A stretch of DNA of 64,000 bases from Mya arenaria. Taxonomy: Eukaryota; Mollusca; Bivalvia; Myida; Myidae. The stretch covers positions 36,279,756-36,343,755 of the forward strand of contig NC_069135.1 in assembly GCF_026914265.1 (NCBI RefSeq), given 5' to 3'. The notes beneath the pieces were generated by a model that saw nothing but the letters and a program-made list of their open reading frames with translations, was not told the origin of the DNA and did no database searches. Numbering within the stretch: position 1 is the first letter of the stretch; each line of letters begins with the position of its first letter. The translations under genes and the position numbers were made by a program. This document shows positions 7,619 to 49,576 of this stretch, piece after piece.

Positions 7619-7653
7619 TTAGACTGCACGCGCGTAAAATACCTTGTTTCCAG

Positions 7654-10320: not shown

Positions 10321-12415
10321 TTGCAATGGATTGGGTATGGACTTGGAGCCTTTATCTCTTAAAAATCAAAGCGCTTAAAGCATTGAATGGCTTTCGGCCT
10401 GCAACGTTTTGTGAGAATAGTCATGTAATTGTAAAACATAGTTATTAACATAAAAATCTAAAGATAGTATATGCTCGCTCATAATTTCCTTTGGAAAAAC
10501 TTATAGAGTTTTATGTTGATTCTCAATTAGATCATGTAGTATAAGTCACTTGAAATGTGTAATACGTCAAATATATACGTATACGGTATGGAATAATTCT
10601 CAATATCATATAAAACTTTGTTTTCAAAAATAATGCACTGCCACGGATAAAGCATTTAGGAATTTTAGTAAAATCTACTCTACAATTGGAACTTGACATA
10701 GGCGTATTAAGTTTACTTCCAGGATATGCCAGCCTAACCAAATGCACCCCAACAAAATGCATTGGACATATTAATTAGGTTTATGTTTAAGGCTTCCTTC
10801 TACAACGACAAATACCTCTGGATCGAACAACCCAAATCATATTTATTCCCTGTATGTTTGATGTATATGTATCGAAAAAATGCCCTCAACCTATGTCACA
10901 AAATGAACAGATTACTCATATATATCAGTGGTTTTTAAGTATGCATATGCATTATACTACATGCTCAAGACTTTGGTCTGAAATTACTAAGAAAAACTGA
11001 GGAATATTCACACACTTTCTGTTTCATTCGGCATTACATGACTATGACACAAACTGTAGCAGGTCGATAGCCTGTCAATGCTTTACGCGATTTGATTTGA
11101 ATGGTAAAGGTGTATAATATGCATTTAGTACTGGTTAAAGGTTGTTAATATGTACTTACACAAGAGAATGGTCTTACGCGACACTCATTTAACAAACACA
11201 AGGACAAACTATCAATCTCAATAAAAATATCAAGTAAGAGCGATTGAAGCAATATAAAACATAGAAAATATTCTTATGAATGAACCTCAATAACCAAATA
11301 TAAACTGATTGTAGGATAAAATGAAGTATTATAATTTCATTTAAAACATTATGGTTTGATATCTTACGCCTAAATAGCATTTAATTGCATCATAATACGA
11401 TCCATATTTTTTCCGGGTTTTAACAAGTTCTCAGAGTTTATTTCCGGGAAATAAACCTGTCTGAATGCGATGACCCAGATTCTATTCTTAACTGCAAAGT
11501 ACATGAAGATATTATCAGATCTCGGCCTTACATTTATTTGATTCAGTACGCATTCACTTAGAAACTATTTGCAGATTCTGCTTTTTATATTGCGTTCTAT
11601 AACTCGCCGATATTGAAATAATTGCTTTTCGTACAATTTTAATCGCGTTATATTACGTAAAACGCAGCTTATTCGAACTATATTAACCGCATAACAAAGA
11701 TTGAAAACACCGAACAGCGCATTTTTTAGCTAGCTAATTAATATGCCGAACGCAGTCCGTAGCAATTGAAGAAGATTGCTTACTAAGTATTTTCGACGTA
11801 ACTTTTAAAGTTAATTAGGTTGTTGACCAACGCAGTTCTAACTGCGTTGGGGTTGATACGCCCGTGCGCGCATTAATTCGCCAAAAGTTAAAAATGTTAT
11901 GTCGATCTGCCGATGCGATTTCCGAGATACGGTTGTAAAAGTCTGCAGGCCTAGCGGCTTACAGCCTAACAACACTCTTTTATAACACAAAATAAATGTT
12001 TTTCATACCTTTCCCTTAAATAAAACAAATGAAATTTATGTACAAAGGGTTAATATGTGCGCGTGGTCAAGAGGATTTCACAGTTGCTAAATTAAAAAGT
12101 GGACATACAAATGCAGTAAACATTTTTTTAGAGGAAAAGGACCTTCTGAGGATCATCCAGACCCTAAGCTTGCAACATAATTATACAAATACATCAGAAA
12201 TTTGAAAACTAAATGTAATTATGCCAGATAGATTAAAAACTATTTTCGTGTTTTTTTTGCTTCTATTTATAGAAACCTTATATCTAAATAAGTATTGATA
12301 TAACATACATTGTGGTATTAGATAAGGAACAATTTTACTAGATCTATTGAAGGTGATTATTACGACAGGTTGATAAATATTCCCAAAACAGATAGGCCAG
12401 AAACACTTAGAGCTT
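10321..12415. other. AT-rich DNA unique to copy A; nothing recognised
   Basis: No coding, RNA or transposon signature found. In copy B the same interval (between homologous points 10320/57775 and 12418/61938) is occupied by the tyrosine-recombinase relic instead. Confidence 0.5.
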
Positions 12416-12902
12416 CATCTGTATCAAAGAATACATTGAAGTTTCAAGGCCCTTTTGAAGTATGAGTGTGTGACAAACAGCCGTTCACCTTACTGCAGAA
12501 ACACACAATATTCTTATTGATCCAGTCTTGCAGGAAATATGCCATATGTGTGTATGCATATACATGATAACTTATATAATTAAGGAAGACAATTACGTGT
12601 GAACATTCTTACTCTTGTGTTTCATTAATCCAAATAAAATAAAATTTAAATGCAGCGACCAGCTGTGAACCTGATTCCACTCGAGAGAGTTAAAAAAAGA
12701 GATAGGGGAAAATACTGTAGAACAAAGATAATATATGTCGTTTGAGCAGCTTCTGAATGATGTTAATCTATTTAAATCTTACACTGGCACCACCAATCAT
12801 CAATTAATCATTTATACATATCCCTTTAAATTGTTTAAAGAGTTTACATTTTTCGGTAAAGGAATCTGTATTCTTTGTACACAAATAATGCAACTTTGAA
12901 AT

Positions 12903-13110
12903 GTATTATGGACATTCCAGTTCTGGATATTTAACATTTCTGTCGGATGTGGATAAAGGGAGCAAGAGTGACAGTGACATGGTCATAGCCTCACAGCTTG
13001 TGCACTTCTTAAAGCCAGGCGAATTAGTAATTGCATATGGGGTATTTTAGACATCCTTCATTAAAACAAAGTGTTATTGCACATTTGACCATTTAAAGCG
13101 GCATGCAGTG
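12903..13110 (+). pseudogene. DDE transposase fragment, broken (copy A)
   Basis: Nucleotide counterpart of 62420-62638. It keeps the region for FLSDVDKGSKSDSDMVIAS, but an in-frame TAG follows the AYGVF equivalent and other changes are present. A short eukaryotic DDE-transposase remnant; not functional. Confidence 0.5.
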
Positions 13111-14075
13111 AATGATTGAAATTAAATAAATACACTATGTAACGAAACACAAGAATGTATATATAACTATATTTTAATATTTGTATTGACAACACATCGA
13201 TGTTTATATATATAATTGTACTATGTGTGTACAATATATGTTACAGACTTTTCTGTATAAATCATGACATTGCTTACTGTTTTTCATTTATTTATTTAAA
13301 GGTCATCTGGCATAATCCGTCATCAACCGGCACTATAATGACCTTGCCTTCCCCAGCTGTTATACAGACACTGCATCTGAAAAAAAAATCCAATTAATTT
13401 CTTAATCATAAAACATCGAAACCTATTTTATACATTAAGTACCTGGTTACATATCATCTACTTAGTATTCACAAATACACATTAGGACACACAGACAAGA
13501 TCCGTTGTATGATAAGACAGAGATAGTGTACCTATTTCTGACCAACTGATATATATCCATTTCATATGTGTGTTTACCTTAATTCTGGGCTAGAAACAAT
13601 ATTACATTTTATTTAAGAATTTTAATGCAGCTGTTAGACTAAATATTTTATGTTAAACCTAAAAATCATTACAATAGTATACGTTTTCTTAAATGTAAAC
13701 GTATATACATGGATTGCATTTGCTTACCTGTTAATTGGTTCTGGTCTTTCCCCAGATGAAGTTAAACCTCAGCAGCACTGTGTCCATTATTTAATTCAAC
13801 AATTAAATTCTGAGAGAACTTTGCACCAGGAAGATCATTCATGGTGAATGTTACTGTAAAAACCTTATCAGAATAAGCCATTTTTTACATTTCTTTGTAC
13901 TACCTTCCTGGAAATTTTGTATCACGTGGTACACATAGCAGAAAGCAATGACGAAGTAAATCCCTCTTCTTTGTAAGAAATAAATAATTAAAATATGCAT
14001 GAGTTGTTAAAATAACAATAGCAAAAAACATTGGCAAATTTAACAGCCGACACGAACAATAACTGTCACGTGATT

Positions 14076-14287
14076 TGTTATGAAATTGGGTGGATAGTGT
14101 ATATAAACACAATTCAATGTTTTATACTTAAATAACGATATACATCTCATGATAGTAAACACAACTATGTTATGTACAAAACAATGCAGCAGTAGTAAGA
14201 ATAACATTAGACAGTAGGTGGAGCTTAATATTCATAAGCAGCTCTGAGTTATCATGGTTACATTTTATATGAATGGAATACCAAACA
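14076..14287 (-). repeat. 3' LTR of the gypsy-like element
   Basis: A 212-bp segment that on the minus strand starts TGTTTGG and ends CATAACA, giving the expected TGT...ACA ends. The purine tract GAGGGAGA lies immediately upstream, as expected for plus-strand priming. The copy B counterpart is 63688-63899, of identical length. Confidence 0.85.
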
Positions 14288-14829
14288 TCTCCCTCAAAAA
14301 ATGTTAACCTAAGGTTCACATATTAGAGACATCACTCATGACATTTTTCAGAAGTTCTAATCTAAACATAAATGAAACTGTCAGTTAAAATATTTCTTAA
14401 TTAGAGATTATAACGTCTTATCTGAGACTCTTGAACTTAATCTGAATGTCATTACTTCTAACATTAAACATAGTTCCCATATCGCTGTGGTGCTTGAACT
14501 TCCCTCCCAGATCGAGTTACGTATGTTACTGGAGATTGTGTTTTATCTCTCTGTTCACCCGGAGTTTCCCTGGAATTGAAAAGAACATTGACACCATTTT
14601 CACTTTGTTTTTCGTTTGATTTGTCAGGCTCACGAAAATCACTGTTCGGAATTTGTTGCAAATGCCATCGATTTCTTGTATATGTTTTATTTTCTTTATC
14701 TACATCGTATGATCTTCTCTCTTGGAATGGAATCGTAATAGTTCCTTCTTTTTCCCATTTCTTCTCATTGTCTAGTTATATTCTGACCTTTTGACCTTCA
14801 TTCAATAATGGCAATGCACGTGCAGAATA

Positions 14830-15677
14830 TCTATTGTTGTAGAAATATTCGCAAGTTTGTTTTGTCTTTATTGTTGTTTCTTTGAACAATTGACCGTCTA
14901 GGCGATTTTGGTCTAGTGGTTTCTGGCATACATGGAAGAAACGTGCGAACATTCCTGCCTATCATCAGCTGATTAGGACTAAATCCTGTTGCTATTATTG
15001 GCGTTTTCCGATACGTTTGAAGTGCTCTGATAACATCAGTTTGTCTCAAAATACCCTTCGCTAATTTTACCCAAGCTTCGGCTTGAGAATTTCCTTGCGG
15101 ATATCTTGTGGATGAAGATGAATGTTTCATATTATGTTTTTCCATAAACTTTGTGAATTTATCAGATGTGAAGGGTGTACCGTTATCGGTCACTAGCTGT
15201 GTGGCGTCGCCCCAATGTAAGAACATGTTTGAGATTTTTCCCCACCACGTTATCACTTGTTGCTCTCGGTAAGTATCCCGTCTTAAGATAACGTGAATAA
15301 TAATCCATTACTACCAGAAACTGTTTATTGTCAACTACGTTGTCTGCGGCAATTTTCTTCCATAGCCCATTAGGCAAAGGCATTGTTTTCAATGGTTCAC
15401 GTCCTGGTGTTGGCTTAATTTCTTGGCATGTTTGACAGTTTTGAATTAACTTCACAATGTCTTTGGATATTTTTGGCCACCAAACTGTTAGGCCAGCTAG
15501 GATCTTACTTTTAGTAATTCCCATGTGACTTGTATGCAATTGTAAAATTTCTTCGTGAAATTTGCCTGGTACAACAATTCTACTCCTGTTCAACAGTAAA
15601 CCTTTGGTCACAGAATAATCATTTCTTAATGGAAAGTACGGCTCTAATTCCTGTGTAAGTTTTCCTTTTCCGGCCAT
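14830..15677 (-). pseudogene. Integrase domain, frameshifted
   Basis: Two overlapping frames carry an H2C2 zinc-binding region (LHTSHMG, NCQTCQE) and then the DDE core: the first Asp in VVMDYYSRY, the second in LVTDNGTPFTSDKF, the Glu in PQGNSQAEAWVKLAK. A frameshift near 15183-15256 separates the first Asp from the other two. All three catalytic residues remain recognisable. No intact polyprotein exists here. Confidence 0.88.
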
Positions 15678-15799
15678 CCATGCTTTGTGTACGTACTAAC
15701 CTTTTGAATATTTTCATCATTTTGTTGTGACTGTTGTATTTGCTGTAGAGGAATATTTTCAGTGACCATTTCTATATATGTATTCACTTTATTCTTAAA

Positions 15800-17420
15800 A
15801 GTTTGATCAAATTCATTTAATGGAGACCTGGAAAGGGTATGTGACACAACCATTTCTTTGCCCGGTATATAACTGCATATTGTATTAAACTTTCTCATTC
15901 GCATGTGAAGCCTCTGACATCTTAAAGGTGCTTGGTCAATGATCTGATTGTTAATAAGCGATATCAGCGGTTTGTGATCTGTCAATAGAAGAAAAGAATC
16001 CAGCCCTAACTATATTTTTCAAACCTTTCGCATGCCCATACAGAGGCGGTCATTTCTTTCTCAATTTGCGCGTATCTCTTTTTTTTACATCGGACAACAT
16101 TCTCGAACAATACGCTACCGACTTGAGATTCGAACCTTCTTTAACGAAAAGTGTTCCACCTAATCCGTAACTACTGCTATCAGCGCTAACAACTTAAGGT
16201 TTCGATCTTTCATAATACGCTAAAGTCGGCGCGTTTGTCAGCAAAACTTTAATAGTTTGGAAGGCTTTTTCATGCCGAGCGCCACATTGCCGAACTGATT
16301 TTGACTTCAACAATTCAGTCATAGGGCTCATGACTGTAGACAAATTTGGAGTGTACATTCCTAAATATTTAATCATCCCTATCACGCGTCTCAATTCCGC
16401 GACATTGTTTGGCGTACTAAGGTATTTTACTGCTTGGACCTTTTTTGGATTAACACTGACCCCTTTATATAATAAATATATGGCCAAAATATTCAATTTT
16501 GGACTGTCTGAACAAACATTTGTTTTTGTTTTATTTTAGTTCCGAATTTTCGATCCTTTGTAGGACTTTACTCAAATATTTATCATGCTCCTTTACGTCT
16601 TTACCATAGACGACAATGTCATCCATAATGGCATCAACACCTGGCAGACCATCTAAAAGCTCAGACAATTTTCTTTGAAATATTTCAGGAGGTGACATGA
16701 TCCCAAACGGAACACGTTTGAACGCATATCGACCAAATGGCGTTTTAAATGTCGTCGATCGCGAGCTATTGTCGTCGGTAACTGATAGAAACCATTCGCT
16801 GCATATTACTTTAAAAAGACTGTCATGTTCAAAAGTTTCGGTGAAATACAGTCAAGATTTGGTATCTTAAAGCGTTCACGTTTTACGGATTTGTTTCACT
16901 TTGTTAGATCGACACAAATTCTTACATTTGCATTCGGCTTAACTACTGGTACCATCGGTGCACACCAGTCAGTCTGTTGCATTACACCGTCATTAAGCAT
17001 TTCATTAAGTGCCTTTTCACACTTCTGCAAGGGTGGAAATGGTACGCAGCACGCTCTATTCTCACTGTACGGCTGTGCATCTGGTTTGAGCTCTATTCTA
17101 ACAGGCTCGCATTTCATGGTTCCCGCGGTTCCAAATATGCTTTGTGAAAGTTTACCTAGACGTTGTACTAAATGCATAGCCTTCGCGGCTCCTCTACTAA
17201 GTAGACTATTTTGATAGTTTCCAGCGACCGCGAACACGCGAAACAGAAACTTTTTCCCATCATGATCAGCAATGAAGTAACTCTTACAAACAATTTTACC
17301 ACCAGGACCACGAAGAACCGAAGATGAATGCTTTAGCGCTGGGCGCTTTTTCAATGATTTGAATGTTGACTCAGAAATGACTGTAGCGTCTGCCCCAGTA
17401 TCAATTTATATACAATATTT
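15800..17420 (-). pseudogene. Protease-RT-RNase H region, broken
   Basis: A DTGAD aspartic-protease motif lies near 17390-17405 in a frame different from its upstream neighbour. The RT begins around CVDLTK (16900), has a MDD active-site remnant near 16610-16620, and continues to 16194. RNase H sequence (TDHKPL, then YIPGKEMVVSHTLSR) lies at 15800-15985. Several stops and shifts separate the pieces. Confidence 0.85.
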
Positions 17421-20334: not shown

Positions 20335-20570
20335 CGAGCTTGTGCGGGCATCAGTATTTCGACCCTAACGTGGCGATATGTTGCCAGTGGTCGGTGACCA
20401 TGCGGGTTGCGGGCTTGCGGACGAAATGCTGCGGCACAACCGCGTTCGACCCGGACTCCCATAAGTGCTGCACAAATGACAACGTGGTGGAGAAGATCGC
20501 GGGGAAGAGGACGGTGTGCTGTGGAATGGAGCCAATGGACCCGCGGACCCACAAATGCTGTGGTCACACT
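20335..20570 (+). CDS. Galaxin-repeat exon (about 2.5 repeats)
   Basis: A 236-nt exon with acceptor TTACCTTATAG, incoming phase 1 (matching the linker exon at 8736) and donor ACT|GTAAGC, phase 0. It encodes about 78 residues: LCGHQYFDPNVAICC, then KCCGTTAFDPDSHKCC, then VCCGMEPMDPRTHKCCGHT. The CC-x(n)-CC modules match the giant exon. The frame is open throughout. It has higher GC than the flanking introns. Confidence 0.85.
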
Positions 20571-21311: not shown

Positions 21312-21610
21312 CACTGTATTCCACTCCCGTGCAGTACGGCCGTATTCCACCCCGTGCAGTACGGCCGTATTCCACTCCCATGCAGAACGGCCGTACTCCA
21401 CTCCCGTGCAGTACGGCCGTATTCCACTCCCGTGCAGTACGGCCAAATTCCACTCCCGTGCAGTGCGACCGTATTCCATTCCCGTGCAGTACGGCCGCAT
21501 TCCACTCCCGTGCAGTACGGTCGCATTCCACTCCCGTGCAGTACGGCCGGATCCCACTCCCGTGCAGTACGGCCGTATGCCACTCCCGTGCAGTACGGAC
21601 GTATTCCACC
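21312..21610. repeat. 26-bp GC-rich minisatellite, about 11 copies
   Basis: The unit is GTATTCCACTCCCGTGCAGT plus ACGGCC. It contains a partial palindrome (GGCC junctions). Because 26 is not a multiple of three and the unit lacks stops in most readings, several overlapping 70-130 codon frames are open on both strands. None is a gene. Confidence 0.95.
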
Positions 21611-22880: not shown

Positions 22881-22962
22881 GTTCAACCTCTTGTGGCTGG
22901 GGAAGACACTCATTGCTGCGGGTACGAGAGCTACGACCCCATGGAGAGACTCTGCTGCAAAG
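22881..22962 (+). CDS. Short galaxin-repeat exon
   Basis: An 82-nt exon, phase 0 in and phase 1 out (AAAG|GTATGC). It encodes VQPLVAGEDTHCCGYESYD then PMERLCCKG, one A-to-B transition typical of the giant exon, where VQP, VAG and SYDP recur many times. The incoming phase matches the donor at 20570. The outgoing phase matches the acceptor at 23487. The acceptor is weak (CTATAAAG), so its inclusion rests mainly on phase and reading frame. Confidence 0.75.
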
Positions 22963-23487
22963 GTATGCACGTGTTGTTTTCTTACCAAGGGTCGTCTTTA
23001 ATATTTAGTTTAAGATATAACTCAAATATCATCTTAACTTACTTGGCGTTTCTAAGCCAGAGACTCCACCGCGATATCATGAGACATAGATGTTTATTTC
23101 TAAGGTTATTTTTTGAATTATATAAAAAAACTAAAACATATCTTGAATTATAATCTAAGCTTAAATTGAATAATATTATTTAAATGTGTTTACATATTTT
23201 GATATTGCATTATTAAGTTTATCCAAATTTCTGCTCTTAATATAATTATTCGACTCTTTATTCAGGGCTGGCTTTCAATATTGTCTTAATTGAATCTAAG
23301 AACGATGTAGCTAATCGGATTACTTGTTATTTAGAACTTACCAATAGAGTGAACGAATTCAGTAATGTATGAACCTTCGATTAACTTAAGTTGCATATTG
23401 AATACCACCTCAGCAGAACGACGACATCGTCAATGACTGTCGCAAAAGCATTTTTTCTTGCACACACGAGTTTGATTGTTTTTGCAG
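22963..23487. other. Last intron, with a possible alternative gene start
   Basis: It contains the dispersed repeat at 23300-23402 and ends in the good acceptor GATTGTTTTTGCAG. An in-frame ATG at 23433 would give MTVAKAFFLAHTSLIVFAG, which looks like a signal peptide, so an internal promoter cannot be excluded. Confidence 0.5.
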
Positions 23488-26400
23488 GAATGTTGTTTCC
23501 ACCACACGTTCACCCCAATTGTTACGGCTGTGATGGAATGCACGAAAAGCCGTTCTTTGACAATAATAAGCATGCCTGTTGTGAAGGAAAACTGGTCCCT
23601 GCTATTGTTGGCAACCTGACCTGCTGCTGTAAGGCACAGGCATTTGACCCGCAAGATCGTATATGTTGTGATGACAAACTGCAAGATAGAGTTGGCGGTG
23701 ACATATCGGCGTGCTGCGGGGACAAAAACTATGACCCGAAAACATCCATATGCTGCAATGGCAACGTGCTGCCACGTGTCGCAGGAAACATGACACGCTG
23801 CTGCAATACGCGGAGTTTTGATCCGGATACACATGTCTGCTGTGACAATAAGAAACTTGCGAAGAAAACAAGGAAGTCTGACAGTTGTTGTTGCGGGGAC
23901 GAGGCGTTCTCGCCTAATAAGGAAGTGTGCTGTGACGATGAGGTACAGCCGAAATTTAAACGCGGTACACAGTGTTGTGAAAAGAAGAGCTTTAAATCTC
24001 AAAAACTTATTTGTTGCGAAGGTTCAATTCAGTCGCTTGCTAGAGGACGTAAGAGCATTACGAGATGTTGCGGACAAAAGAGCTATCACGCTAAGAAAGA
24101 GCTGTGTTGCAACAATAAAGTAATGAAAAAGAGTAAAAAAAAACATACCGGTTGCTGTGGAGACGTTTCGTACGATCCGAGAACGGAAATGTGTTGCAAT
24201 GGAGAACCAGGGCCTATGCTTAAAGAAGGAACAAGATGCTGCAATAAGAATAGCTTCAATGTTAAAACTGAGATTTGCTGCGATGGAAGGGTGTATCCAA
24301 ATACCATGGTTTGCTGTAATGAAAAAATAATCATAGATACCAACAAGGAAATATGTTGTGATGGAAACAAAATTGAAACAAAGGCGCACAAAGACGATAA
24401 CTGTTGTTGTGGCAATACTTCAATGAATACGCTTGAAGGCATTTGCTGCGAAGGTGTTCCGCAGTCATTAGAAGCTTCTGACAAAACGAGGTGTTGTGGG
24501 CAACTAAGTTATAACCCCGACAAAGAAATATGCTGTGAAAATCGCGTAGTACCGAAAATCGACTCTAAGGATAATTGGTGTTGCGGGGATACCAGCATCA
24601 ACACTAATTTGCATATATGTTGCAGAGAAAATAAACAGCCAATTTTAACATTAGTCGAAAATACGTTTTGTTGCAGAAATAAAAGCTTCAATGGAAGACT
24701 GCAGATGTGTTGCACTGGTGACGTGGTCGACAAACGCACGCCATCAGATGACTACTGCTGTGGAAAAGCTACAATCGATACTCAAAACGAAATTTGCTGT
24801 GAAGGAAAACCAATTGGGGTTTCTGATACTGATTATGGATTTTGTTGTGGAGATGATGCGGGCGACACAAGAGAACAACTATGTTGCAACATGAAACTTG
24901 TGCCTAAACGAAGACCGGATGATGATTGTTGTTGTGGTGGTACAACGATGAATGCCAACAACATGATATGCTGTAAAGGAAATTCTGAGCCAAAAGAGGG
25001 TGGAGAATTCACAAAATGCTGTGATGACAAAGCGTATGACTCCAGGGACGAAATGTGTTGTGATATGAGAGTGAGACCGAAGCGGAATACAGAAGATGAT
25101 TGTTGCTGTGGAAACACAACATATGATAATGATGCCGAGATTTGCTGCATGAACGTGGTTCAGCCAGCACATGCAGGAAAAGACACACAATGTTGCATGG
25201 ACGAGAGCTACGATCCTAATGCGTTCATGTGTTGTGATGGAAAAATGAAAAAGACTAAAAGGTCGCCGAACGACAACTGCTGTTGCGGAGATACAACTAT
25301 GAATTCCAAAGAAGAAATGTGTTGCCAGGACACACCTCAGCCGAAGGAGAATGATTTCTACTTTTGTTGTGACAGGAAAAGTTTTGACTCGAAAATGTAT
25401 GTGTGCTGTGAAAACCGAATTGTTCTAAAGGTCGATGAAGATGATGACTGTTGTTGTGGAAACACTACAATGAACTCGAAAGACTTTGTATGTTGCCGAG
25501 GGAAACGTCAAATAAAGTATAAAGGGCAACAAACAGGTTGTTGTGGCGATGAAAGCTACGGTATGAAGGATTCAATGTGCTGCGATAAAAAGGTGGTTGA
25601 GAAAGTATCCAAGAAGGACGATTGTTGTTGTGGTAAAACTACTATGAACACAGAAGATCAGATTTGTTGTCTGGCAAAGCCACAGTATGTTAGTGGGTCC
25701 AACTGGATGTGTTGCGACAGGAACAGCTACAACCCACAAACACATTTGTGTTGTGAAAACAAAATAGTAAAGAAAGAAAAAACAGAGGACAACTGGTGCT
25801 GTGCAGATGATCCATACGACACAAACACCCAGGTGTGTTGTGACATGGTCGTTCAGCCCGCCTACGGTGATCCAGATACGACAAAATGTTGCGGCACTAT
25901 TAGTTACGATATGGAGAACATGATTTGCTGTCACGGTGATTTATTGGAGAAGACGGACAAAGATGATAAATGGTGTTGTGGTGATGAAACGTACAACACG
26001 AGAAAGCACGTTTGTTGTAATGGAAAAGTGAAACAGCCAAGATACGGGGACCGGACACAATGCTGTGACAATAAAAGTTTTGATATGGGTACGCATATAT
26101 GTTGTAATGAAAGCATTTACAAAATGAATTCACCTGACGATGACTGTTGCTGTGGAGACGAGTCAATGAATACAAGAAATGAAATATGTTGCGAAGGCGT
26201 CCGACAAGCAAGAATCGGTGGAGAATATACTGATTGTTGTGGTACTGTCGCATATAACACAAGAAAACAAATTTGCTGTGAACGAGACGGAGTCAGAGAC
26301 AAACGAAACGATGACGACGACTGTTGCTGTATTGATACAACAATGGAGTCTTCAGAAGAAATATGCTGCAAAGATGGTCCAGTTCCCATCAGGGGATCAC

Positions 26401-29400
26401 AGGAATTCACAGACTGCTGCTGTGGTCAATCGTATGACACCAGAAACCAGATTTGTTGTGAATGCAGTCTGGTCAAGAAATCCAAAGTCTCCGACAATTG
26501 GTGTTGTAATGATACTTCAATGGACACTGAAACAGAAGTCTGCTGCTTCGGTAAACCACAACCTGCTGTAGCAGGGCCAGACACCAGATGTTGCAAACTT
26601 AAGAGTTATGATATAGACGAATATTTATGTTGCAATGGCACAAACTTGATTAAAAAAAAATCTACCGACGACAATGTATGTTGTGCGAATGAACCTATGA
26701 ATTTCGACACTCAAATATGTTGTGACGGTGAAGTTGATAAAAGAAACGGTGGCGAATTAACACAGTGTTGTAGTAAACAAAGCTTTGATCCAAGAAAGGA
26801 AATATGCTGCCGTGATAATGATGGAGATTGGAACCCACGTCCAAAGAGATCCAGGAAAGATGACATGTGCTGTGGTAATGGAACTGTTGATACAGACAAC
26901 GAGATATGTTGTGATGGAAGGGCTCAACCTGGTGGTCCATATTCTCATTGTTGCCACGGAGTAAGCTATGACAGTAAAACACAAATATGTTGCGGAGATC
27001 ATGATGAACATTTTATCATTGATAAAGAAGAAAAGGATGACGATTGCTGCTGTGGCAAACCCGGAAGTTATGTCTCGGCAAATGGAACAGATCACATATG
27101 CTGTGAGGGAAATAAACAACCACGGTGTGCTGGTCCTGATACCAGGTGTTGTAGGGATGTTAGTTACGACCCAGAAATATCGTTGTGCTGCAACGGAATA
27201 CATGTTCACGAGAAAGATTCAGCGGATGATAACTGCTGTTGTGGAGTAAACACATTTAATACTGAGGATGAGCTTTGTTGTGAAAACACTACACAACCTG
27301 GCGGGCCGACATGGGCATGTTGTGTCGACAAGAGCTATAACACAGAAACTCACATCTGCTGTGAACACCGGATAGTAGCTGTAGCAGAACCAGAGGATAA
27401 ATGGTGTTGTGGTGACACAACATACAATATGAAGAAACATGTTTGCTGTCAAGGCTTATACAAACAACCAAAACAAACACCGGATCCAGAAGATACAAAG
27501 TGCTGTAATAAATACAGCTATAATCCTTCGACTCATATTTGTTGTGATGGCAATATCGTTGAAAAGGAAGACGTAAAGGATACAATGTGTTGTGGAAACG
27601 GTACAATGAATACAAAACAGATGTGTTGCAATAGAAATGTTCAGCCTGGCGGTAGAACTTACACGTGTTGTAATGAGTATAGTTATAATACACTAACACA
27701 TTTGTGTTGTAACGGAAAAGTTAGAGAAAAGAAAAATGACAACGACGACGGCTGTTGTGGGGATGACAGTTCTGTAAATAGTCAAACGGAGCTGTGTTGC
27801 AAAGGTGTTCCGCAAGCTGTTGATCCAGAGTTTGGTGACTGTTGTGATTCAAATGTTTACGACGAAAGAACACATATTTGTTGTAATGATTCAGAAGTTA
27901 TAGCAAAGGAGGATGAAAGAGACAACGTTTGCTGTGGTGACAGCACGATGCATGCATCCGACCATATATGTTGTAATGATGTAAGACAACCAAGAGTTGC
28001 CGGAGACGACACGCTTTGTTGCCTTGATAAGAGTTATGATCCAGCTAATAAGGTATGCTGTGATGGTATGAGATTATCAAGGAAATCATCACCAGACGAT
28101 GACTGTTGTTGCGACGATAAAACCTTCAACAGCAAGACGGACATATGCTGTGAAAATGTACCGAATCCTGGATATGGGTCTGACACACAGTGCTGTGGTA
28201 AGAAGAGCTTTAATCAGAAAACGCATGTGTGTTGCCACAATGAAGTCATAGAAAAGATAAACGAGCAGGACGATGGTTGTTGTGGCAATAGAACTATTGA
28301 TGCCAGTAGCCAGATATGCTGTAATGGCAACCCACAACCAGGACCAATCAGAATGTATTCCTGTTGTGGCGATGAAAGCCATAACGTCAAAACTCATATT
28401 TGCTGTGATAATAATGACGTAAGGGAGAAACATAATTCTAAAGATGACTGTTGTTGTGGTGATACATCCATGAACACCAAATCTGAGATTTGTTGCGATG
28501 GCAAAGTACGAACACGTGTTGGAGCGGAGATGACAAAATGCTGTCTGGAAGAAGCATTCGATCCAATTAAACAAATTTGCTGCGAAGGTCGTGTTATTAC
28601 CAAAGTTGAAGAGGACGACAACTTATGTTGTGGAAATGTAAGTTTTAACACAATGGAACAGATATGCTGCAACCATTCACCGCAGCCTCTTGTCGCAGGA
28701 TCCTCTACACAGTGTTGCGACAATGTCAGTTTTAATCCAGCAAAGCAACTGTGTTGTGAGAAGGGTGTTGTGGAAAAGGAGAGCGATGATGATACATGCT
28801 GTTGCGGTAAGAACAAAACATATAATCCTGATGATGAGGTTTGCTGTGGAGGAATCAATCCACAGCCTAAATATGGAGACAATAATAAGTGCTGTAAACT
28901 TAAGAGTTACAACGCAGATACACAAGTATGTTGCGACAAAGATGTTGTCGATAAAACAGATTATGATGATGATCATTGTTGTGGAAATTCAACGTACGAT
29001 AGTATAAACGAAATATGCTGCGAGGGTGTCGCGCAGCCAAAGAAAGGTGGACCTTTTACTGACTGTTGCGAAAAGAAAAGCTTTGATATAATGTCTGAGC
29101 TCTGTTGTGACGGAGAAGTTATAACGAAAGATGATCTTAGTCATGATGAATGCTGCGGAAAAAGCTCTATGGACTCAAAGGACGATATATGCTGTGAGGG
29201 TGTTACAAACAAAGGATATGGAAGAAACGAAAAATGCTGTGGTTCGGAGAGTTACAACATGATCAATTCAGTTTGCTGTAATGGGAATATTGTTCAGAAA
29301 GCCAGTCCTGAAGATACCGGCTGTTGTGGTGACAGTACTTTCAACTATGAGACAGAGGTGTGCTGCTTGGGTGTAACAAATGATTATTACGGGCCACGTA

Positions 29401-32400
29401 CTGGTTGTTGCCTAGATAAGAGTTACAACAGCAGTGAATCAATCTGTTGTGATGGAACCACTGTGACAGCTAAACGTGATAAAAATGACAACTGGTGTTG
29501 TGGCAATAAACCTTTCAATACAAAGATGGACGTTTGCTGTGAAGGCAATATACAACCGAAGTATGGGCGAAACACGACTCAATGCTGTCACGAGGTAAGC
29601 TTCGATTCAACTTTGTCTTTATGCTGTGGACGAACCATCGTGACAAAACATTCACCCGATGCCGACATGTGTTGTGGAAACACTACAGTTGATATGAGTA
29701 AGGAAATATGCTGTGAAGGAGTTCCAAGATCGAGAACAGACGGTGAGTTTACGTCGTGTTGTAAAGACAAAAGCTACTCTACAATGTCGCAACTCTGTTG
29801 TAATGAAGGTGACCTGAGAAACAAAAACAGGGATAATGATAGAGAATGCTGTGGAACTAAAAACACATTTAACCCAGCTAAAGAAATTTGTTGTAACGGG
29901 GAAGCTTATGATGTAGGAGGTGTCGACAGTGCTGGATGTTGCGACGGAAAAGGCTACAATATTGAAACACATATATGTTGCATAGATAAAATTGTTCCAC
30001 GTGGAGATGAAGGCAATAACTGGTGTTGTGATGATGTTCCATTCAACACTGCTACACACATATGTTGTAATGGAAATGTTGATGAAAGAAAAGGGGGTGA
30101 AATGGCAAGATGTTGCTCACAAGACAGTTTCAACTCCCAAACCCACATATGTTGCGACAATAATGTGATTGAAAAAACAAAAGACAATGCTACATGCTGT
30201 TGCGGTAAGACCAAAACATATAATCCTGATGATGAGGTTTGCTGTGGAGGAATCAATCCACAGCCAAAATATGGAGACAATACTAGGTGCTGTATACTTA
30301 AGAGTTACAACGCGGATACACAAGTATGTTGCGACAAAGATGTTGTCGATAAAAAAGACAATGATGATGATCATTGTTGTGGAAACTCAACGTACGACAG
30401 TATAAACGAAATATGCTGCGAGGGTGTCGCGCAGCCAAAGAAAGGTGGACCTTTTACTGACTGTTGTGACAAGAAAAGCTTTGATATAATGTCTGAGTTA
30501 TGTTGTGACGGAGAAGTTATAACGAAAGATGATCTTAGTCATGATGAATGCTGCGGAAAAAGCTCTATGGACTCAAAGGACGATATATGTTGTGAGGGTG
30601 TTACAAACAAAGGATATGGAAGAAACGAAAAATGCTGTGGTTCGGAGAGTTACAACATGATCAATTCAGTTTGCTGTAATGGGAATATTGTTCAGAAAGC
30701 CAGTCCCGAAGATACCGGCTGTTGTGGTGACAGTACTTTCAACTATGAGACAGAGGTTTGCTGCTTGGGTGTAACAAATGATTATTACGGGCCACGTACT
30801 GGTTGTTGCCTAGATAAGAGTTACAACAGCAGTGAATCAATCTGCTGTGATGGAACCACTGTGACAGCTAAACGTGATGAAAATGACAACTGGTGTTGTG
30901 GCAATAAACCTTTCAATACAAAGATGAACGTTTGCTGTGAAGGCAATATACAACCGAAGTATGGGCGAAACACGCAATGCTGTCACGAGGTAAGCTTCGA
31001 TTCAACTTTGTCTTTATGCTGTGGACGAACCATCGTGACAAAACATTCACCCGATGCCGACATGTGTTGTGGAAACACTACAGTTGATATGAGTAATGAA
31101 ATATGCTGTGAAGGAGTTCCAAGATCGAGAACAGACGGTGTGTTTACGTCATGTTGTAAAGACAAAAGCTACTCTACAATGTCGCAACTATGTTGTAATA
31201 AAGGTGACGTAAGAAACAAAAATAGGGTTGATGATAGAGAATGCTGTGGAACTAAAAACACATTTAACCCAGCTAAAGAAACTTGCTGTAACGGGGAAGC
31301 TTATGATGTAGGAGGTGTCGACAGCGCAGCATGTTGCGACGGAAAAGGCTACAATATTGAAACACAAATATGTTGCATAGATAAAATTGTTCCACGTAGA
31401 GATGAAGGCAATAACTGGTGCTGTGATGATGTTCCATTCAACACTGCTACACACATATGTTGTAATGGAAATGTTGATGAAAGAAAAGGGGTTGAAATGG
31501 CAAGATGCTGCTCACAAGACAGTTTCAACTCCCAAACCCACATATGTTGCGACAATAATGTGATTGAAAAAACAAAAGACAATGATAACATGTGTTGTGG
31601 TAAGAACAAAACATATAATCCTGATGATGAGGTTTGCTGTGGAGGAATCAATCCACAGCCAAAATATGGAAACAATACTAGGTGCTGTATACTTAAGAGT
31701 TACAACGCGGATACACAAGTATGTTGCGACAAAGTTGTTGTCGATAAAAAAGATAATGATGATGATCATTGTTGTGGAAATTCAACGTATGATAGTATAA
31801 ACGAAATATGCTGCGAGGGTGTCGCGCAGCCAAAGAAAGGTGGACCTTTTACTGACTGTTGTGACAAGAAAAGCTTTGATATAATGTCTGAGCTATGTTG
31901 TGACGCAGAAGTTATAACAAAAGATGATCTTAGTCATGATGAATGCTGCGGAAAAAGCTCTATGGACTCAAGGGACGATATATGTTGTGAGGGTGTTACA
32001 AACAAAGGGTATGGAAGAAACGGAAAATGCTGTGGTTCGGAGAGTTACAACATGAACAATTCAGTTTGCTGTAATGGGAATATTGTTCAGAAAGCCAGTC
32101 CCGAAGATACCGGCTGTTGTGGTGACAGTACTTTCAACTATGAGACAGAAGTCTGCTGCTTGGGTGTAACAAATGATTATTACGGGCCACGTACTGGTTG
32201 TTGCCTAGATAAGAGTTACAACAGCAGTGAATCAATCTGCTGTGATGGAACCACTGTGACAGCTAAACGTGATAAAAATGACAACTGGTGTTGTGGCAAT
32301 AAACCTTTCAATACAAAGATGGACGTTTGCTGTGAAGGCAATATACAACCGAAGTATGGGCGAAACACGCAATGCTGTCACGAGGTAAGCTTCGATTCAA

Positions 32401-35400
32401 CTTTGTCTTTATGCTGTGGACGAACCATCGTGACAAAACATTCACCCGATGCCGACATGTGTTGTGGAAACACTACAGTTGATATGAGTAACGAAATATG
32501 CTGTGAAGGTGTTCCAAGATCGAGAACAGACGGTGAGTTTACGTCTTGTTGTAAAGACAAAAGCTACTCTACAATGTCGCAACTCTGTTGTAATGAAGTT
32601 GACGTGAGAAACAAAAATAGGGATGATAATAGAGAATGCTGTGGAACTAAAAACACATTTAACCCAGCTAAAGAAATTTGCTGTAACGGGGAAGCTTATG
32701 ATGTAGGAGGTGTCGACAGCGCTGGTTGTTGCGACGGAAAAGGCTACAATATTGAAACACATATATGTTGCATAGATAAAATTGTTCCACGTGGAGATGA
32801 AGGCAATAACTGGTGCTGTGATGATGTTCCATTCAACACTGGTACACACATTTGTTGTAATGGAAATGTTGATGAAAGAAAAGGGGGTGAAATGGCAAGA
32901 TGTTGCTCACAAGACAGTTTCAACTCCCAAACCCACATATGTTGCGACAATAATGTGATTGAAAAAACAAAAGACAACGATAACATGTGTTGCGGAAACT
33001 TAACGCTTGATTCAACTATCGAAGTTTGTTGTATGGGAACAACCCCACAGCCCAGAATCGGCGGGGACAAAGTCCAGTGCTGCTTTGAATTAAGCTTTGG
33101 TCCAGATACTCATATGTGTTGCGGAAAAGACGTCATTGAAAAGGAAAAAAGAAAAGATGATTGTTGTTGTGGCCATAAATCAATGAACTCTGAGGATGAC
33201 ATTTGCTGCCTTGGTGAAAAACAAACACGTGTTGCTGGGGAATTTACCTCATGTTGTGAAGAAACGAGTTACGACTCTAGAGAAGGTATATGCTGCAATG
33301 GAATGGTACGAACAAAATATGGCTCAGAAGATGATGCTTGTTGCGGGGTCGAATCCACAGTGGACTCCAAGAGTGAAATGTGCTGTGATGGTGTGTCAAA
33401 CAGACTTGTTGGTGGTAAATACACGGACTGCTGCGGTAACAAGACATTTGACAGTCAAACCGAAATGTGCTGTTATGGTAAAATTATAGAGAAAGTCGAC
33501 AATGATAATAACTGTTGCTGCGGAGCAACAACGATGAACACAGAAACCCAGATTTGCTGCATGGGAGTACCACAACCTGTGGTTGGGGGTGATGCAGCAA
33601 GATGTTGTTATGACAAGAGTTACAATTCAGATGAAGGGATATGCTGTGATGCAGGAGACATAAGAGATAAAGAAGAGCAGGATCACGATTGGTGTTGCGG
33701 TTCATCAACCTTCAATACCAAGTCCGGTATATGCTGCAATGGTGTCCCACAAGATAGAAAAGGGGGTAAAAACACAAAATGTTGTGGAACAGAAAGCTAT
33801 AACTCTGACACAAGTTTCTGTTGTGATATGAAAATTGTTCAAAAGAGGGACAAAAACGATGACTGTTGTTGCTGCAATATGACTATCCAATTATCTAATG
33901 AAGTGTGCTGTGAGTGTGAACCTCAACCAAGATACAGAGGTCCAACAACATGCTGTGGAAAGCAAAGTTACAACACAAAAGACCAACTTTGTTGTTTTGG
34001 TAAAGTCGTTGACAAAAACAAACCCGAAGACGACGGGTGTTGCGGCGATTCCACCGTCGATGCTGAAACAGAGACCTGCTGCATGGGTGTGCCTCAACCA
34101 ATACGTAATAAAGATACAACGAGATGCTGTAAGACAGAAAGTTACGATAATCGAAAGGAAATGTGTTGTGAAGACAAAGTAGTGCAAAAGAATAGCCAAG
34201 CAGATGAATGGTGCTGCGGAGATCAGCCATATAATACTAGAAAGCAAATATGCTGCCATGGGTCCGTCGTGCAACAGTCTTATGGCGATAGTACACACTG
34301 CTGTGGTGACATTTCTTACGCCGCAAATACACAGATTTGCTGCGATTCAGGCTTATTTAACAAAACGGATGATGAGGATAACTGGTGTTGTGGAGATACG
34401 TCATATAACACGGAAAAACAAATGTGTTGCCAGGGAAAGTTTGTGGCAGACAAGGTGGCTGGTTCTTCAACCCGCTGTTGTGGACGCATGAGCTTCAATC
34501 CAAGAAAACAGCTATGCTGTGATGTCGATGTTGTTGATAAAACGGATGATGATGATGATAGTTGTTGCGACAAGGTTACGATGAATGCAGAAGATCACAT
34601 TTGCTGCCATAAAAAGAGATTTGATCGAAGAAGTAAAAGTATGGAGTGTTGTGATGAAATTGCGTACGACACAAATACACAAATATGTTGTGCACCAAAT
34701 CACGTACAAAATAAAAGCCACGAGGATGACAACTCTTGCTGTGGTGAATCAACATTTAATACAAAGCGGGACGTTTGCTGCGACAAAACTCCTCAGCCAT
34801 CATTTGGAAAGACAACTATTTGCTGTCACAAGAGAAGTTATGATTATTCAATACAAATCTGCTGTGGAGATGATTTACGAAATAAGAGATTATCGTCAGA
34901 TAATTGTTGTTGCGGAAACACCACTATGACGTCCGGTCTACACATATGTTGCGAGGGTGTACCAGGTATAGGAACACACTGTTGTGGCGAGATTGCATTT
35001 ATTGCTAAAGACTACGTGTGTTGTGATACGGGAAAACTTCGAGAAAAAGAAAATCCAAAAGACAACTACTGTTGTGGAAAGGAAGAAACATACAACACGA
35101 AAACACATATATGTTGTCTTGGAAAGGTATTTTCAAATAAAAGTGACGAAATGATGTGCTGTGGCGATGTTGGTTATGATGCTTCGACCCATATTTGCTG
35201 CCAGGGTACTCTGATTAAAAAGTCCAAGAATAGCGATGACACATGCTGTGGAAGTACACCCATGACAGAACGAACCGAAATATGTTGCAACGAACAAGTT
35301 TATCCTGGAGGAAAATACCATACCTGTTGCGGAGATATTAGTCTTGACACAAAAAAAGAGCTTTGTTGTGATGGTATTGTGTTTCTTAAAACCGATCAGA

Positions 35401-38327
35401 AAGATGATTGTTGCTGTGGAAACAAGACATTTAATAACCAGTTACAAATCTGCTGTGAGAAATCTGTAAGAGATCGGTATTCTGCTAGAGATAAGTGCTG
35501 TAAGGATGAGAATTATAATCCAGTCTCACATTTATGTTGTGATGGAGAAATGAAAATTATTGAGAAGAACGCAGAAGACGATAACTGTTGTTGTGGCAGA
35601 TGGGCAATGAATACGGCACGCCACATTTGTTGCCAGGGCAAGAACGTTCAGGACAGGGTTGCTGGAAATAAAACAATGTGCTGTGTAAATAAGAGCTTTG
35701 ATCCTAATGGATACTTGTGTTGCAACATGAAGCTTGTGAAGAAGGAAAATAAGGATGAAAACTGTTGCTGTGGCGATGAGCCATTTAATTCAGATGAACA
35801 GCTCTGCTGTGATGGTCTATATGTGCAGCCCGGAGGAAACAGGACACAGTGTTGTGACGAAATCAGTTTTGATCCAAACATGCATGTTTGCTGTAATGAG
35901 AAATTGGTAGAGAAGAGAGGAAAGAAAGACTATGGTTGTTGTGGAAAAGGAACGATCGATGCTGAAACGGAGATTTGTTGCCATACAAAGGCGCAGCCAC
36001 TCGTTGCTGGCGTCGAGTACACTTCTTGCTGCTTCGGTGAAAGCTTTGATACCCGCTCTCATCTTTGTTGCGAGGAAGGCGTAAGAGAGAAACGCAACAA
36101 ACGTGACGACTGCTGCTGTGGTAATTCAACGTTTGAAACACGGCGGGGAGTTTGCTGCAATGGAAATCCTTATACAAAGTCCTCAGTAGATGACGACGCA
36201 AATTGTTGTGGCGATGTTGGTTACAACACAGCAATGTTTATGTGCTGTGATAAGGGACTGGTACCGAAAAACGACGCTTCAGATAATTGTTGTTGCGGCA
36301 ATACCACGATGGATACACGGAAGGAAATATGTTGTAATGGTGTTCCTCAGCCACTTACGGGCAATATTACACTCTGCTGTGATTTGCGCAGTTATAATAC
36401 AAAAAATAAAGTATGCTGTGATGGTTTTGATCTGATGGACTCTTCCAGCGAATATGATGATTGTTGTTGTGGCAAGAAAACATACAACACAGAAAGGCAG
36501 ATGTGTTGCGACATGGAGGTTGTCGAAAAGAAGGGTGGCAAGTACTCTGCATGCTGTCTTAAGCAATCATTTGATACAAGATCCGAAATATGTTGCAAAG
36601 AGGACGTGCGCAACAAGATGGACAATAAAGATGATTTTTGTTGCGGAGAAAAAAGTACGTACAACACAAGAACTCAAATATGCTGCGATGGAAAGCCCCA
36701 AGATGTCGATGGTAATGTGAACGACGGGTCATGTTGTGGCCCATATGGCATGAACACGAAGAGACAACTATGCTGTGATATGAAAGTAATAGATAAAGAA
36801 CATCAAAATGACAATTGTTGCTGCGGTAATTCAACCTTCGATGAAAAAACTGAAGTATGTTGTGAAGGTGTAGTACAAGAAAAGATTGGAGGTTCGAAGA
36901 CACGGTGTTGTGTAAAGAAGAGTTATGATCCAGATTCACATCTATGTTGTGACGATCAAATTAGAAGGAAAGATAAACCGGATGATACCTGGTGCTGCGG
37001 GGAAGGCAGTTTTAACACGCAGAATGAACTATGTTGTAATGGTCACTCTCAACCTGCAGACAACGGTAGAACTAGATGTTGTGGCGGTATAAGTTATAAC
37101 CCGAAAGAACAAATATGTTGTGATTCTAACGAGGTTAACGATAAACCCCACCAGGATGACAATGCATGTTGTGGCGATAGTTCATACAATACGAGAAAAG
37201 ACATTTGTTGCGAGGGTGTGCCGCAACCAAAATCTGGCCAAGATACCGGATGTTGCAAAAAGGTTAGCTATGATCAAGATACACAACTTTGTTGCGACAG
37301 TAGCGTTGTCAACAAGACTTTGAGAGGTGATTATGTATGCTGCGAGAAGCAGTCACTCAATCCAGATACACACATTTGTTGCACGGGCAAAGTACAAGAA
37401 AAGACTGGAAGTAAGACTGAATGCTGTGGTGATGTTGCTTACGACACCGATGAAATGATATGTTGTGATGTTGATCGAATGTTAGTGAAGAACCATGCAA
37501 ACGATGACGTCTGCTGTGGCAACGAAACTTACGAGGCAGACAAAGAACTCTGCTGCTACGGGAATTCCAACAAAATATTAACAGACGACAAAATGGACAC
37601 GCGTTGCTGTTCGAAAAAGAGTTACAGTATCTATGAAAACATCTGTTGTGATGGAATGCTATTTGATCTACCGGGTGTATACGGTATGTCTGATTGTTGC
37701 AATGGAAAACCATATAACCGCAAAACACATATCTGCTGTGCTGGTGAGATTCGGGGGAAGAAAAATGCCGACGATATGCTTTGCTGTGGAAAAACAACGT
37801 ACAATCCAGTTACTGAGGTTTGTTGCACATACGAAGGAGAGGAAACACCACAACCAGTCAAGAACGCCAGGGGTAACACACGGTGTTGTGCAGGCAAGAG
37901 TTACGATGCAGATATTGATATGTGTTGTGACGGAGTGATTCAGCACGCATGGGTTGGTCGGTTAACCAGATGCTGTGGCATTCGTAGCTACAATCCAGAG
38001 AAAGGGTTGTGCTGCGATGGACAAGTGATCGAGAAAACAACCCATTTTGACGATTGCTGTTGCTGTAACCGTACATATGACAGTTCCCGGCAGATCTGTT
38101 GTAACTGCAACATTGTTAAAAGTATTAGCAGTTTTCACTCAGAGTGTTGTGGTGGAGACTGCTTTGATTCATTGCTACATCTGTGCTGTGGCGGTGTCGT
38201 ACGGCCAAAGAAGTATGGGGTTGAGTCGTATTGTTGTGGCCCACAGGTTTATACACCGAAACTCGGAGTGTGTTGCGGAAACTACGTAATGTGGAAAGTT
38301 CCTGTGGATATGCCATGGAAGAAATAA
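23488..38327 (+). CDS. Giant galaxin-like exon (4945 codons, about 170 di-cysteine repeats)
   Basis: One uninterrupted frame of 14.84 kb. The acceptor GTTTTTGCAG is phase 1, matching the exon ending at 22962. The protein is a tandem of units of about 29 residues with two CC pairs each, CC-x(11-13)-CC-x(12-17). Units alternate: type A (CCCGNTTMNTKEEICC-x-GVPQP) and type B (CCxxKSYDPxTHLCCDGxVVxK-x-DDDN). Type A often carries an N-glycosylation sequon (GNTT, GNST). The linker before it is Asp-rich and often makes CCC. The fold family is galaxin, first known as a coral skeletal matrix protein; di-cysteines imply heavy disulphide bonding and extracellular location. There is no transmembrane segment; the C-terminus is MWKVPVDMPWKK. 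Function beyond a secreted matrix or structural role is inference. Confidence 0.92.
28800..32990 (+). repeat. Three tandem 1395-bp super-repeats inside the giant exon
   Basis: Blocks starting near 28800, 30198 and 31593 each encode the same 465 residues: from the KTYNPDDEVCCGGINPQPKYG region through SQDSFNSQTHICCDNNVIEK. The spacing is 1398 bp between the first two (copy 1 has one extra Thr codon near 29578) and exactly 1395 bp between the second and third. 465 residues equal 16 galaxin units, or 8 A/B pairs. The copies differ at scattered bases and a few residues, for example EGDLRNKNRDND, KGDVRNKNRVDD and EVDVRNKNRDDN. Confidence 0.97.
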
Positions 38328-38347: not shown

Positions 38348-38843
38348 TTAAAGGGGCTGTCTCACAGATGATAAAATAGCGAAAAAATAAATTGTCGAAA
38401 AATGACATAAACTTTGCATCGATGTGTACAATTCATTGAAACTTACTAACTGAAGTACCACATAGTTTGCAATTTATAAGTTTAGCAGTTATTTCGTATT
38501 TTTCCATTAAAAAGATTACTGGGTATGTCTACCAGGTAGAATTCATTTCTAATGCGTGATTGGTAAGTCGGTGTTATCACGTGATATTACTGAGGTAGGT
38601 ATATACCTTAATTATGTCACCCGACGAGAGTAAGCCTTAATAGCTCACTCAGGATGACGCTGGACTTCAGTTTTGGCGACGCGGGTTCGAACCCGGTCTC
38701 AGACACATTATTTTTTTTACATTTTGGTACCCTTTTTTACAATTATGATATTAAAGCGTAACACATTCTATTAGATAATTGTCATGAGATTCGTTACAGA
38801 AAAAAACTTTTTTTGGTGCCAATATGTGATACAGTACCTTTAA
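38348..38843. mobile_element. TIR element covering the presumed 3' UTR
   Basis: A 496-bp segment with inverted ends (TTAAAGGGGCTGTCTCACAG and the complement of TGTGATACAGTACCTTTAA). It starts 20 bp after the giant exon's stop codon. Inside at about 38640-38705 is a tRNA-like stretch with a perfect B box (GGTTCGAACCC) but poor acceptor and T-stem pairing, so it is a SINE or tRNA relic rather than a tRNA gene. Confidence 0.7.
38386..38391 (+). terminator. Candidate polyadenylation signal AATAAA
   Basis: The first AATAAA after the stop codon, 58 bp downstream and inside the TIR element. It is plausible as the gene's polyadenylation signal. No downstream evidence is available. Confidence 0.4.
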
Positions 38844-47634: not shown

Positions 47635-47760
47635 CTTGTGCATCTCCGCTGGTTGATATGGTGTTCGTCCTGGACTCGTCAGAGAGCGTCAGAGCCGACA
47701 ACTTTACAAAGGTCAAGCAGTTTGTAGCTGATCTTGTTATCAACCCGAACGCAGAGATGG
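47635..47760 (+). CDS. VWA-domain exon 1 with MIDAS motif (copy B)
   Basis: A 126-nt exon, acceptor TATGCCTTCAG, donor ATGG|GTGAAT, phase 1 at both ends. It encodes CASPLVDMVFVLDSSESV then NFTKVKQFVADLVINPNAEMG. The DxSxS metal-ion-dependent adhesion site (LDSSES) is present, as expected of the first strand of a VWA domain. The incoming phase fits both the galaxin exon of copy A and the short exon at 47503. No equivalent exists in copy A. Confidence 0.85.
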
Positions 47761-49563: not shown

Positions 49564-49576
49564 GTAAGTATGTAAC

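Follow-up and report, generated by a model that had tools for sequence, protein, structure and literature searches.

A giant galaxin exon in Mya arenaria, probably the terminal exon of a VWA-galaxin gene in a tandem set of four

What kind of gene carries almost fifteen kilobases of DNA without a stop codon or an intron, with pairs of cysteines recurring from one end to the other? The question is raised by a stretch of 64,000 nucleotides from the bivalve Mya arenaria (contig NC_069135.1, hereafter C14, positions 36,279,756 to 36,343,755 of the forward strand), which is called the window below and is numbered from its first letter. A first-pass annotation, made from the letters alone, had described in it a single exon at 23488–38327 encoding a galaxin-like giant. 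The locus holds a real and extreme variant of the known galaxin family, which belongs to a tandem set and has a clear history of expansion, and a function can be proposed for it. It is likely, in our judgement, that the giant exon is translated and forms the terminal exon of a gene for a secreted VWA-galaxin of the extracellular matrix, one of four in tandem.

The frame around the giant exon runs from stop to stop over 23385–38327 of the forward strand and comprises 4980 codons. The likely splice acceptor is 23488, preceded by an AG at 23486–23487 and in phase with the preceding exon; from there the exon (23488–38327, +) counts 4945 codons plus the stop. Judged from the base composition, 4945 codons without a stop have a chance probability of about 10^-155, and the uninterrupted frame of the earlier description is confirmed. 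An AATAAA polyadenylation-like signal follows shortly 3′ of the stop codon (38386–38391, +). The protein contains 337 runs of adjacent cysteines (C-runs; 308 CC, 27 CCC, and 2 CCCC), whose spacing alternates between about 13 and about 16 residues. They form 168 units with two di-cysteines each, both being present in 168 of 168, and 92 of these units are 29 residues long. The "about 170 di-cysteine repeats" reported earlier are thus correct for units, the di-cysteines themselves being about twice as many. The galaxin-like character is borne out by a hidden Markov model (HMM) check of the translated exon, which the Pfam profile Galaxin_repeat (PF24748) matches in 55 stretches with 3314 bits (curated cut-off 28). 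The calculated mass is 546 kDa, close to the 0.5 MDa expected, with an isoelectric point (pI) of 4.86 and a net charge of about −245 at pH 7.4. Cysteine makes up 14.3% of the exon protein, and in the entire 4980-codon frame no more than 7 cysteines stand alone. The cysteine codons are mixed (432 TGT, 280 TGC) and the CC pairs show all four codon combinations; therefore, the silent sites vary and the cysteines themselves are conserved. An Rfam scan gave no match at gathering thresholds.

The giant exon does not stand by itself. Exon 2 (20335–20570, +; Galaxin_repeat 47.3 bits) enters in phase 1 and leaves in phase 0, and exon 3 (22881–22962, +; 20.5 bits, below the cut-off of 28) enters in phase 0 and leaves in phase 1. 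The predicted joining of these two exons to the giant exon is in phase and stop-free and gives 5051 residues with 344 C-runs. Upstream exons from near 20335 had been anticipated, and exon 2, located there, would splice in phase toward the giant exon. The notion of a single exon survives for the stop-free exon and not for the whole gene, as the giant exon is probably, on predicted splicing, the terminal exon of a multi-exon VWA-galaxin gene and not an intronless gene. Exons 2 and 3 together show 41–46% identity to four bivalve relatives over 103 residues. Farther upstream, exon 1 (1477–1689, +; 33.1 bits) carries galaxin units that precede the VWA domain, of which exon C (4710–4853, +; 33 bits) has an intact frame and exon D (7654–7807, +; 16.4 bits, below the cut-off of 23.8) is the last. 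A single cysteine precedes the first di-cysteine in exon 1, and another stands one step before the first di-cysteine of exon 2.

The family to which this gene belongs becomes visible at the scale of the genome. When a 600-base piece of the exon was compared with the organism's own 1.216-Gb assembly (18 contigs), eight matches were obtained, four of them in tandem at 93–100%. These correspond to four tandem giant galaxin genes at 36.22–36.38 Mb of C14, the window copy being the third. In the surrounding 264 kb, their frames measure 4023, 4028, 4980, and 6350 codons, with 273, 273, 337, and 433 C-runs; when counting starts at the splice site, they encode 4014, 4013, 4945, and 6338 residues (444 to 697 kDa). 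Exons of 12 to 19 kb therefore carry arrays of 273 to 433 di-cysteine runs, uninterrupted in all four genes (no step above 24 residues), and the last 27 residues of the four frames are identical. In the first gene of the cluster, eight exons can be read through without a change of frame; an AG precedes every one of them, a GT follows all except the final one, and the product counted from exon 1 has 4383 residues and 284 C-runs. Its VWA domain is complete (149.9 bits, covering positions 1–172 of the 174 in the profile) and contains the motif DxSxS, which we take to be the metal-binding site of VWA domains. This gene shows the form from which that of the window is descended.

The differences in length among the four genes follow a simple rule. 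At 28789–32998 (+) the window exon contains three tandem copies, about 97% identical, of a block of 1395 bp, that is, 16 units or 465 residues; the block is absent from the Tandem Repeats Finder output, whose period limit was 500 bp. The tandem genes carry 1, 1, 3, and 6 copies of it, and their exon length differences are whole multiples of the block. When all 11 blocks are placed in one tree, the six from the fourth gene form a group in 94% of 200 bootstraps and the three from the window in 16%; strong support is limited to 1 of the 8 inner branches. The simplest reading of these sequences is that block amplification was recent and partly independent among the tandem genes.

Older layers can be recognized beneath the block. 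In the window exon, units two apart have a mean identity of 0.244 versus 0.147 for neighbours. After removal of the recent, near-identical block copies, a period of 8 units stands out (z 6.3, with 0 of 1000 shuffles as high; 11 periods tested), and weaker periods appear at 16, 24, and 32 units (z 4.6, 2.9, and 2.1) and at 4 units (z 2.1). The 58-residue alternation is found in all six giants, that is, the four tandem ones and two more distant ones described below, when within-copy pairs of identity 0.75 or more are left out. In the bivalve VWA-galaxin relatives P0002–P0005 the alternation is reversed, 29-residue neighbours being more alike in these short arrays, and the Mactra protein P0001 and three echinoderm proteins show little difference either way; the comparison in these eight relatives rests on 12 to 23 C-runs each. 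Diagonal scans of unit collinearity between the cluster genes and the two distant giants gave no outstanding offset. The array probably grew by nested duplication, from the 29-residue unit to an alternating pair of 58 residues, then to a super-repeat of about 233 residues (8 units), and then to the 465-residue block of 16 units. This block is the recent step, its copy number still differing among the four tandem genes.

It is of importance whether the protein, and not only the DNA, is maintained. The ratio of nonsynonymous to synonymous substitution rates (dN/dS) among the three blocks of the window exon is 0.22–0.29 (Fisher p 6e-6, 2e-6, and 1e-4). For the four tandem exons, six pairs were compared in two parts outside the block region (the first 1740 and the last 1780 residues), and 12 of 12 values lie between 0.20 and 0.51, with Fisher p from 1e-4 to 6e-40. 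From these ratios it follows that selection acts on the protein in the tandem giants. The cysteine columns show 0–4 changes in 252–264 across the tandem pairs. Gene conversion between tandem copies is possible and would lower all distances.

Protein searches place the giants within a known group. With the whole frame as query, 1 of 658 candidates passed, a protein of 5282 residues from Mactra antiquata, and the C-terminal 1081 residues returned the same protein as the only one of 594. The first 1800 residues of the exon gave 7 of 1993, namely four bivalve VWA-galaxins (Mya LOC128215858, Mercenaria LOC123529337, Mactra ACF0H5_014351, and Dreissena DPMN_129998) and three echinoderm proteins. The four bivalve proteins have the tail, the galaxin segment after the VWA region, and VWA domains in common with the window family; they differ in having 1631–1995 residues, 3–4 VWA domains, and a longest array of 12 C-runs. 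In global alignment with cysteine down-weighted, their last 88 residues find their best place right at the C-terminus of the window protein (z 6.6, compared with 3.0 for the best placement not overlapping the end), and the head placement is weakly best (144.5 versus 130.2 at the best place elsewhere). A sliding HMM test of the same placements did not discriminate, because the repeats match everywhere. Identity to these relatives is 41–46% for the head and 38–41% for the tail. In Mya itself, the last 350 residues of LOC128215858 (1304–1653) match C14 at 100% within a single open frame, 358 residues long. The lengths of the six giant exons exceed that of this terminal stretch by a factor of 11.5 to 18.1; it is taken as the corresponding part, exact exon equivalence aside, as its frame starts slightly further in.

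The other relatives differ more. Mactra antiquata ACF0H5_015127, the protein of 5282 residues, is likewise giant and combines galaxin repeats with VWA, but its galaxin parts alternate with many similar VWA modules before a repetitive charged tail, and its longest array has 12 C-runs; by eye, it appears to have taken a different route to giant size. The echinoderm galaxin proteins (P0006–P0008) have 1045–1150 residues and 52–55 C-runs, with a longest array of 22–23, and no VWA is present among their precomputed Pfam domains. Compared with 12 uninterrupted C-runs in the five bivalve proteins and 22–23 in the three echinoderm ones, the 337 of the window exon are an extreme expansion, as had been proposed. 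No giant galaxin is named in the titles and abstract openings of the open-licence literature searched, and others in print are possible.

Coral galaxin and sponge calcarins offer further points of comparison. Coral galaxin, from Galaxea fascicularis and as Amgalaxin, has repeats of about 30 residues with two di-cysteines each, 12.4–13.4% cysteine, and a signal peptide, and it is a skeletal matrix protein (PMC2726143). The window units resemble it in their 29 residues, two di-cysteines, and cysteine content. Amgalaxin, however, has 338 residues and a dibasic site, whereas the window exon by itself encodes 4945 residues, is part of a family of VWA genes, and lacks RXRR in its frame. Galaxin sensu stricto is defined by an RXRR endoprotease motif and a scleractinian orthologue (PMC6824150). 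This assignment is ruled out by the absence of RXRR from the 4980-residue frame of the giant exon, by the bivalve genome, and by the nearest relatives found, which are bivalve VWA-galaxins. The calcarins of Sycon ciliatum share di-cysteine β-hairpins chained by predicted disulphides and a single cysteine before the array; they differ in having 10–23 di-cysteines per protein, no detailed repeat structure, and a single cysteine also after the array (PMC12419799).

AlphaFold2 predicts regular short hairpins, each starting at a di-cysteine, for eight units of the array, with a predicted local distance difference test score (pLDDT) of 96.7 and a predicted template modelling score (pTM) of 0.71. The alignment used comprised 67 of 81 in-register blocks of the same exon; of the 14 left out, 13 come from repeated block copies. 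In published models of galaxins and calcarins, the first cysteine of a di-cysteine bonds the second cysteine of the preceding hairpin, and in those of galaxins the disulphides run along one chain, from hairpin to hairpin, and not mainly between chains (PMC12419799). Hairpins that begin with a di-cysteine, as predicted here, belong to the same published description and count in favour of the reading given here. No known solved fold was recognized by a sequence search of the PDB (no match at E values up to 1) or by Foldseek at E 0.001. Against a viral library, Foldseek found none at E 0.001 or better and 66 up to E 10, the best at 0.02, and a second structure aligner, run on 2 chains only, reported no match.

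From these elements a mechanism can be proposed. Each di-cysteine would start a short β-hairpin, its first cysteine bonding the preceding hairpin and its second the following one, and the folded chain would form a strongly acidic rod of great length, zipped up by covalent bonds. The VWA end, in genes which keep it, would anchor the rod to other matrix proteins, and the acidic rod may serve as the organic framework of a secreted layer, most likely shell, periostracum, or another. Galaxin of corals and galaxin-like proteins of sponges and of a freshwater mussel have been tied to mineral matrix (PMC2726143, PMC12419799, and PMC10045328, respectively), and galaxins are included among the shell-secretion genes of Laternula (PMC9768464).

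Several observations weigh against the reading of the giant exon as the end of a working VWA-galaxin gene. VWA exons A and B were not found when the window was searched for the window copy; its VWA domain is represented by pieces C and D only, and D, intact in the first cluster gene, is frameshifted near its 3′ end. Because of these defects, the window copy could be a 5′-damaged gene. A signal-peptide exon was not found with the N-termini of two relatives, which gave one match in window 1–1476 (E 0.24, minus strand) and one chance-level match in the 27 kb left of exon 1 of the first gene (E 0.24). Tandem pairs which include the first gene have dN/dS of 0.20–0.26 and those without it 0.29–0.51, so that the later copies may be under somewhat less constraint. 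With regard to the fold, AlphaFold2 can predict solenoids from perfect repeats with high confidence where none exist (PMC11795689). As a control, an echinoderm relative was folded from an alignment of 3 sequences; it reached a pLDDT of only 48.9, though with a similar hairpin pattern, and Foldseek against the PDB gave no match at E 0.001 or better and one at E 9.6. The single cysteine after the array, as described for calcarins, is absent from the window protein. Finally, published mentions of galaxin in bivalves cover both shell secretion and infection response.

If the damage at the 5′ end is decisive, the window copy would be a decaying, unexpressed duplicate and the first cluster gene alone would work. 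The state of the other copies fits this picture, as no VWA exon at all was seen in the second copy (in a scan of the cluster outside the giant frames, with matches of at least 45% identity) and the VWA region of the fourth is broken and split by a retroelement. A decaying copy, however, is hard to reconcile with 4945 codons without a stop. It is also hard to reconcile with the comparison between the third and the fourth giant exon, where dN/dS is 0.29–0.33 (p 1e-9 and 9e-12), the two compared parts have no gap columns, and 0–1 cysteines have changed. Moreover, if exon 1 were joined directly to exon 2, both being in phase 1 at the junction, the product would lack VWA but stay in frame. Decay of the window copy is accordingly regarded as unlikely. 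In the fourth gene, the VWA exons recognized within the window are A (47635–47760, +; 31.5 bits), B (49419–49567, +; frame broken, 17.0 bits, below the cut-off), and the 5′ piece of D (50703–50783, +; no Pfam match alone), separated from the 3′ piece (55138 onward) by a reverse-transcriptase element. This element (RVT_1, 77 bits) occupies 50783–55137; similarity to the upstream copy breaks off at 50782 and begins again at 55138. Window 1–14389 and 43417–64000 form a segmental tandem duplication, in pieces of about 70–97% identity, one of them inverted, and the exons missing from one of its two VWA-front copies are not those missing from the other.

Another reading gives the protein a role in immunity or mucus and not in a structural layer. 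After challenge with Vibrio, galaxin is among the genes listed as changed in haemocytes of the Manila clam and in mussel gill (PMC4234419, PMC7772429), but the galaxins of these infection responses are other, unspecified ones, and the ties to mineral matrix and shell secretion cited above point the other way. Such a role seems unlikely.

A rival gene model supposes that the giant exon is a complete intronless gene, with a start ATG at 23433 and, before the repeats, a hydrophobic stretch acting as signal peptide. The frame does remain open in front of the acceptor, and the stretch MTVAKAFFLAHTSLIVFAG is hydrophobic, with a 12-mer mean of up to 1.97 compared with a highest value of 1.76 elsewhere in the frame. 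This ATG, however, is not common to the copies: the frame of the first copy begins HTSLIVFAG after a stop, with no methionine before the acceptor, and the remaining two tandem frames also begin differently from that of the window. The hydrophobic residues are the translation of the T-rich tract that precedes the AG. In addition, stretches matching exons 2 and 3 without a stop occur in each of the four copies, and they are in phase in the two checked (that of the window and the first). Because the start codon is not shared among the tandem copies, an intronless gene is considered improbable, and the terminal exon of a multi-exon gene remains preferred. The upstream part of the window also contains a microsatellite of the TCAT type, with about 115 copies and an internal CAGT-like stretch (6131–6589), and, in the intron that separates exon 2 from exon 3, a minisatellite with 11 copies of a 26-base unit (21316–21609). 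Retroelement remnants lie at 14831–17405 on the minus strand, with an integrase zinc-binding match of 46.5 bits and matches to integrase core and aspartyl protease below their cut-offs.

The cluster is not the only site of giant galaxins. A Pfam family search of the genome gave at least 151 matches, all of those listed being on C14, a lower bound as 150 of 964 candidates were scored. Two further giant frames lie on C14, one of 5891 codons and 400 runs at 8.95 Mb (+) and one of 4734 codons and 291 runs at 13.80 Mb (13796446–13810647, −), which makes at least six on one chromosome. In local alignment they show 40–42% identity to the cluster genes. The array of the 8.95-Mb giant is interrupted by 1 step above 24 residues (longest gap-free part 179 C-runs), and it keeps a similar head and tail. 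That of the 13.80-Mb giant is interrupted by 15 such steps (longest gap-free part 38 C-runs), and this giant has lost the usual tail; most of its long steps are of about 42 residues, at missing di-cysteines, and early decay or divergence is possible. Smaller galaxin-matching frames of 358–1432 residues are located at 5.545, 13.54, 13.59–13.62, and 13.76 Mb of C14. The search of the protein collection returned no Mya arenaria giant, though a smaller protein from the same contig is present there, and giant galaxin genes may be missed or split by annotation. The interpretation offered in the first-pass annotation is supported in part; the VWA domain of the family, the number of giants, and the fixed length steps of 16 units were not foreseen.

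That the exon length is an assembly artefact, as a 1395-bp block of about 95–97% identity, present in 3 copies here and in 6 in the fourth gene, might suggest, is very improbable and was rejected as the cause of giant size because the assembly contains five more giant frames, also at two separate loci; besides, the blocks differ from one another, those of the fourth gene group together, and with one block the array still has 136 units in two other copies, although the exact count of near-identical blocks rests on the assembly.

Galaxins are among the best-known coral skeletal proteins, yet they are small, and the clam arrays reach 273 to 433 di-cysteine runs. A small module of mineral matrix has thus been lengthened here into a predicted secreted protein of enormous size, probably in the shape of a rod. 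We tentatively suggest, as a possibility more than an expectation, that the mega-galaxins of Mya are disulphide-zipped acidic rods whose length is set in quanta of 465 residues by a coding megasatellite. Some of their genes would have shed the VWA anchor, and the number of blocks would vary between individuals, so that rod length would be evolvable and perhaps selected. The neighbouring genes, which differ in length by multiples of the block, offer a natural experiment on how array length relates to the secreted material.

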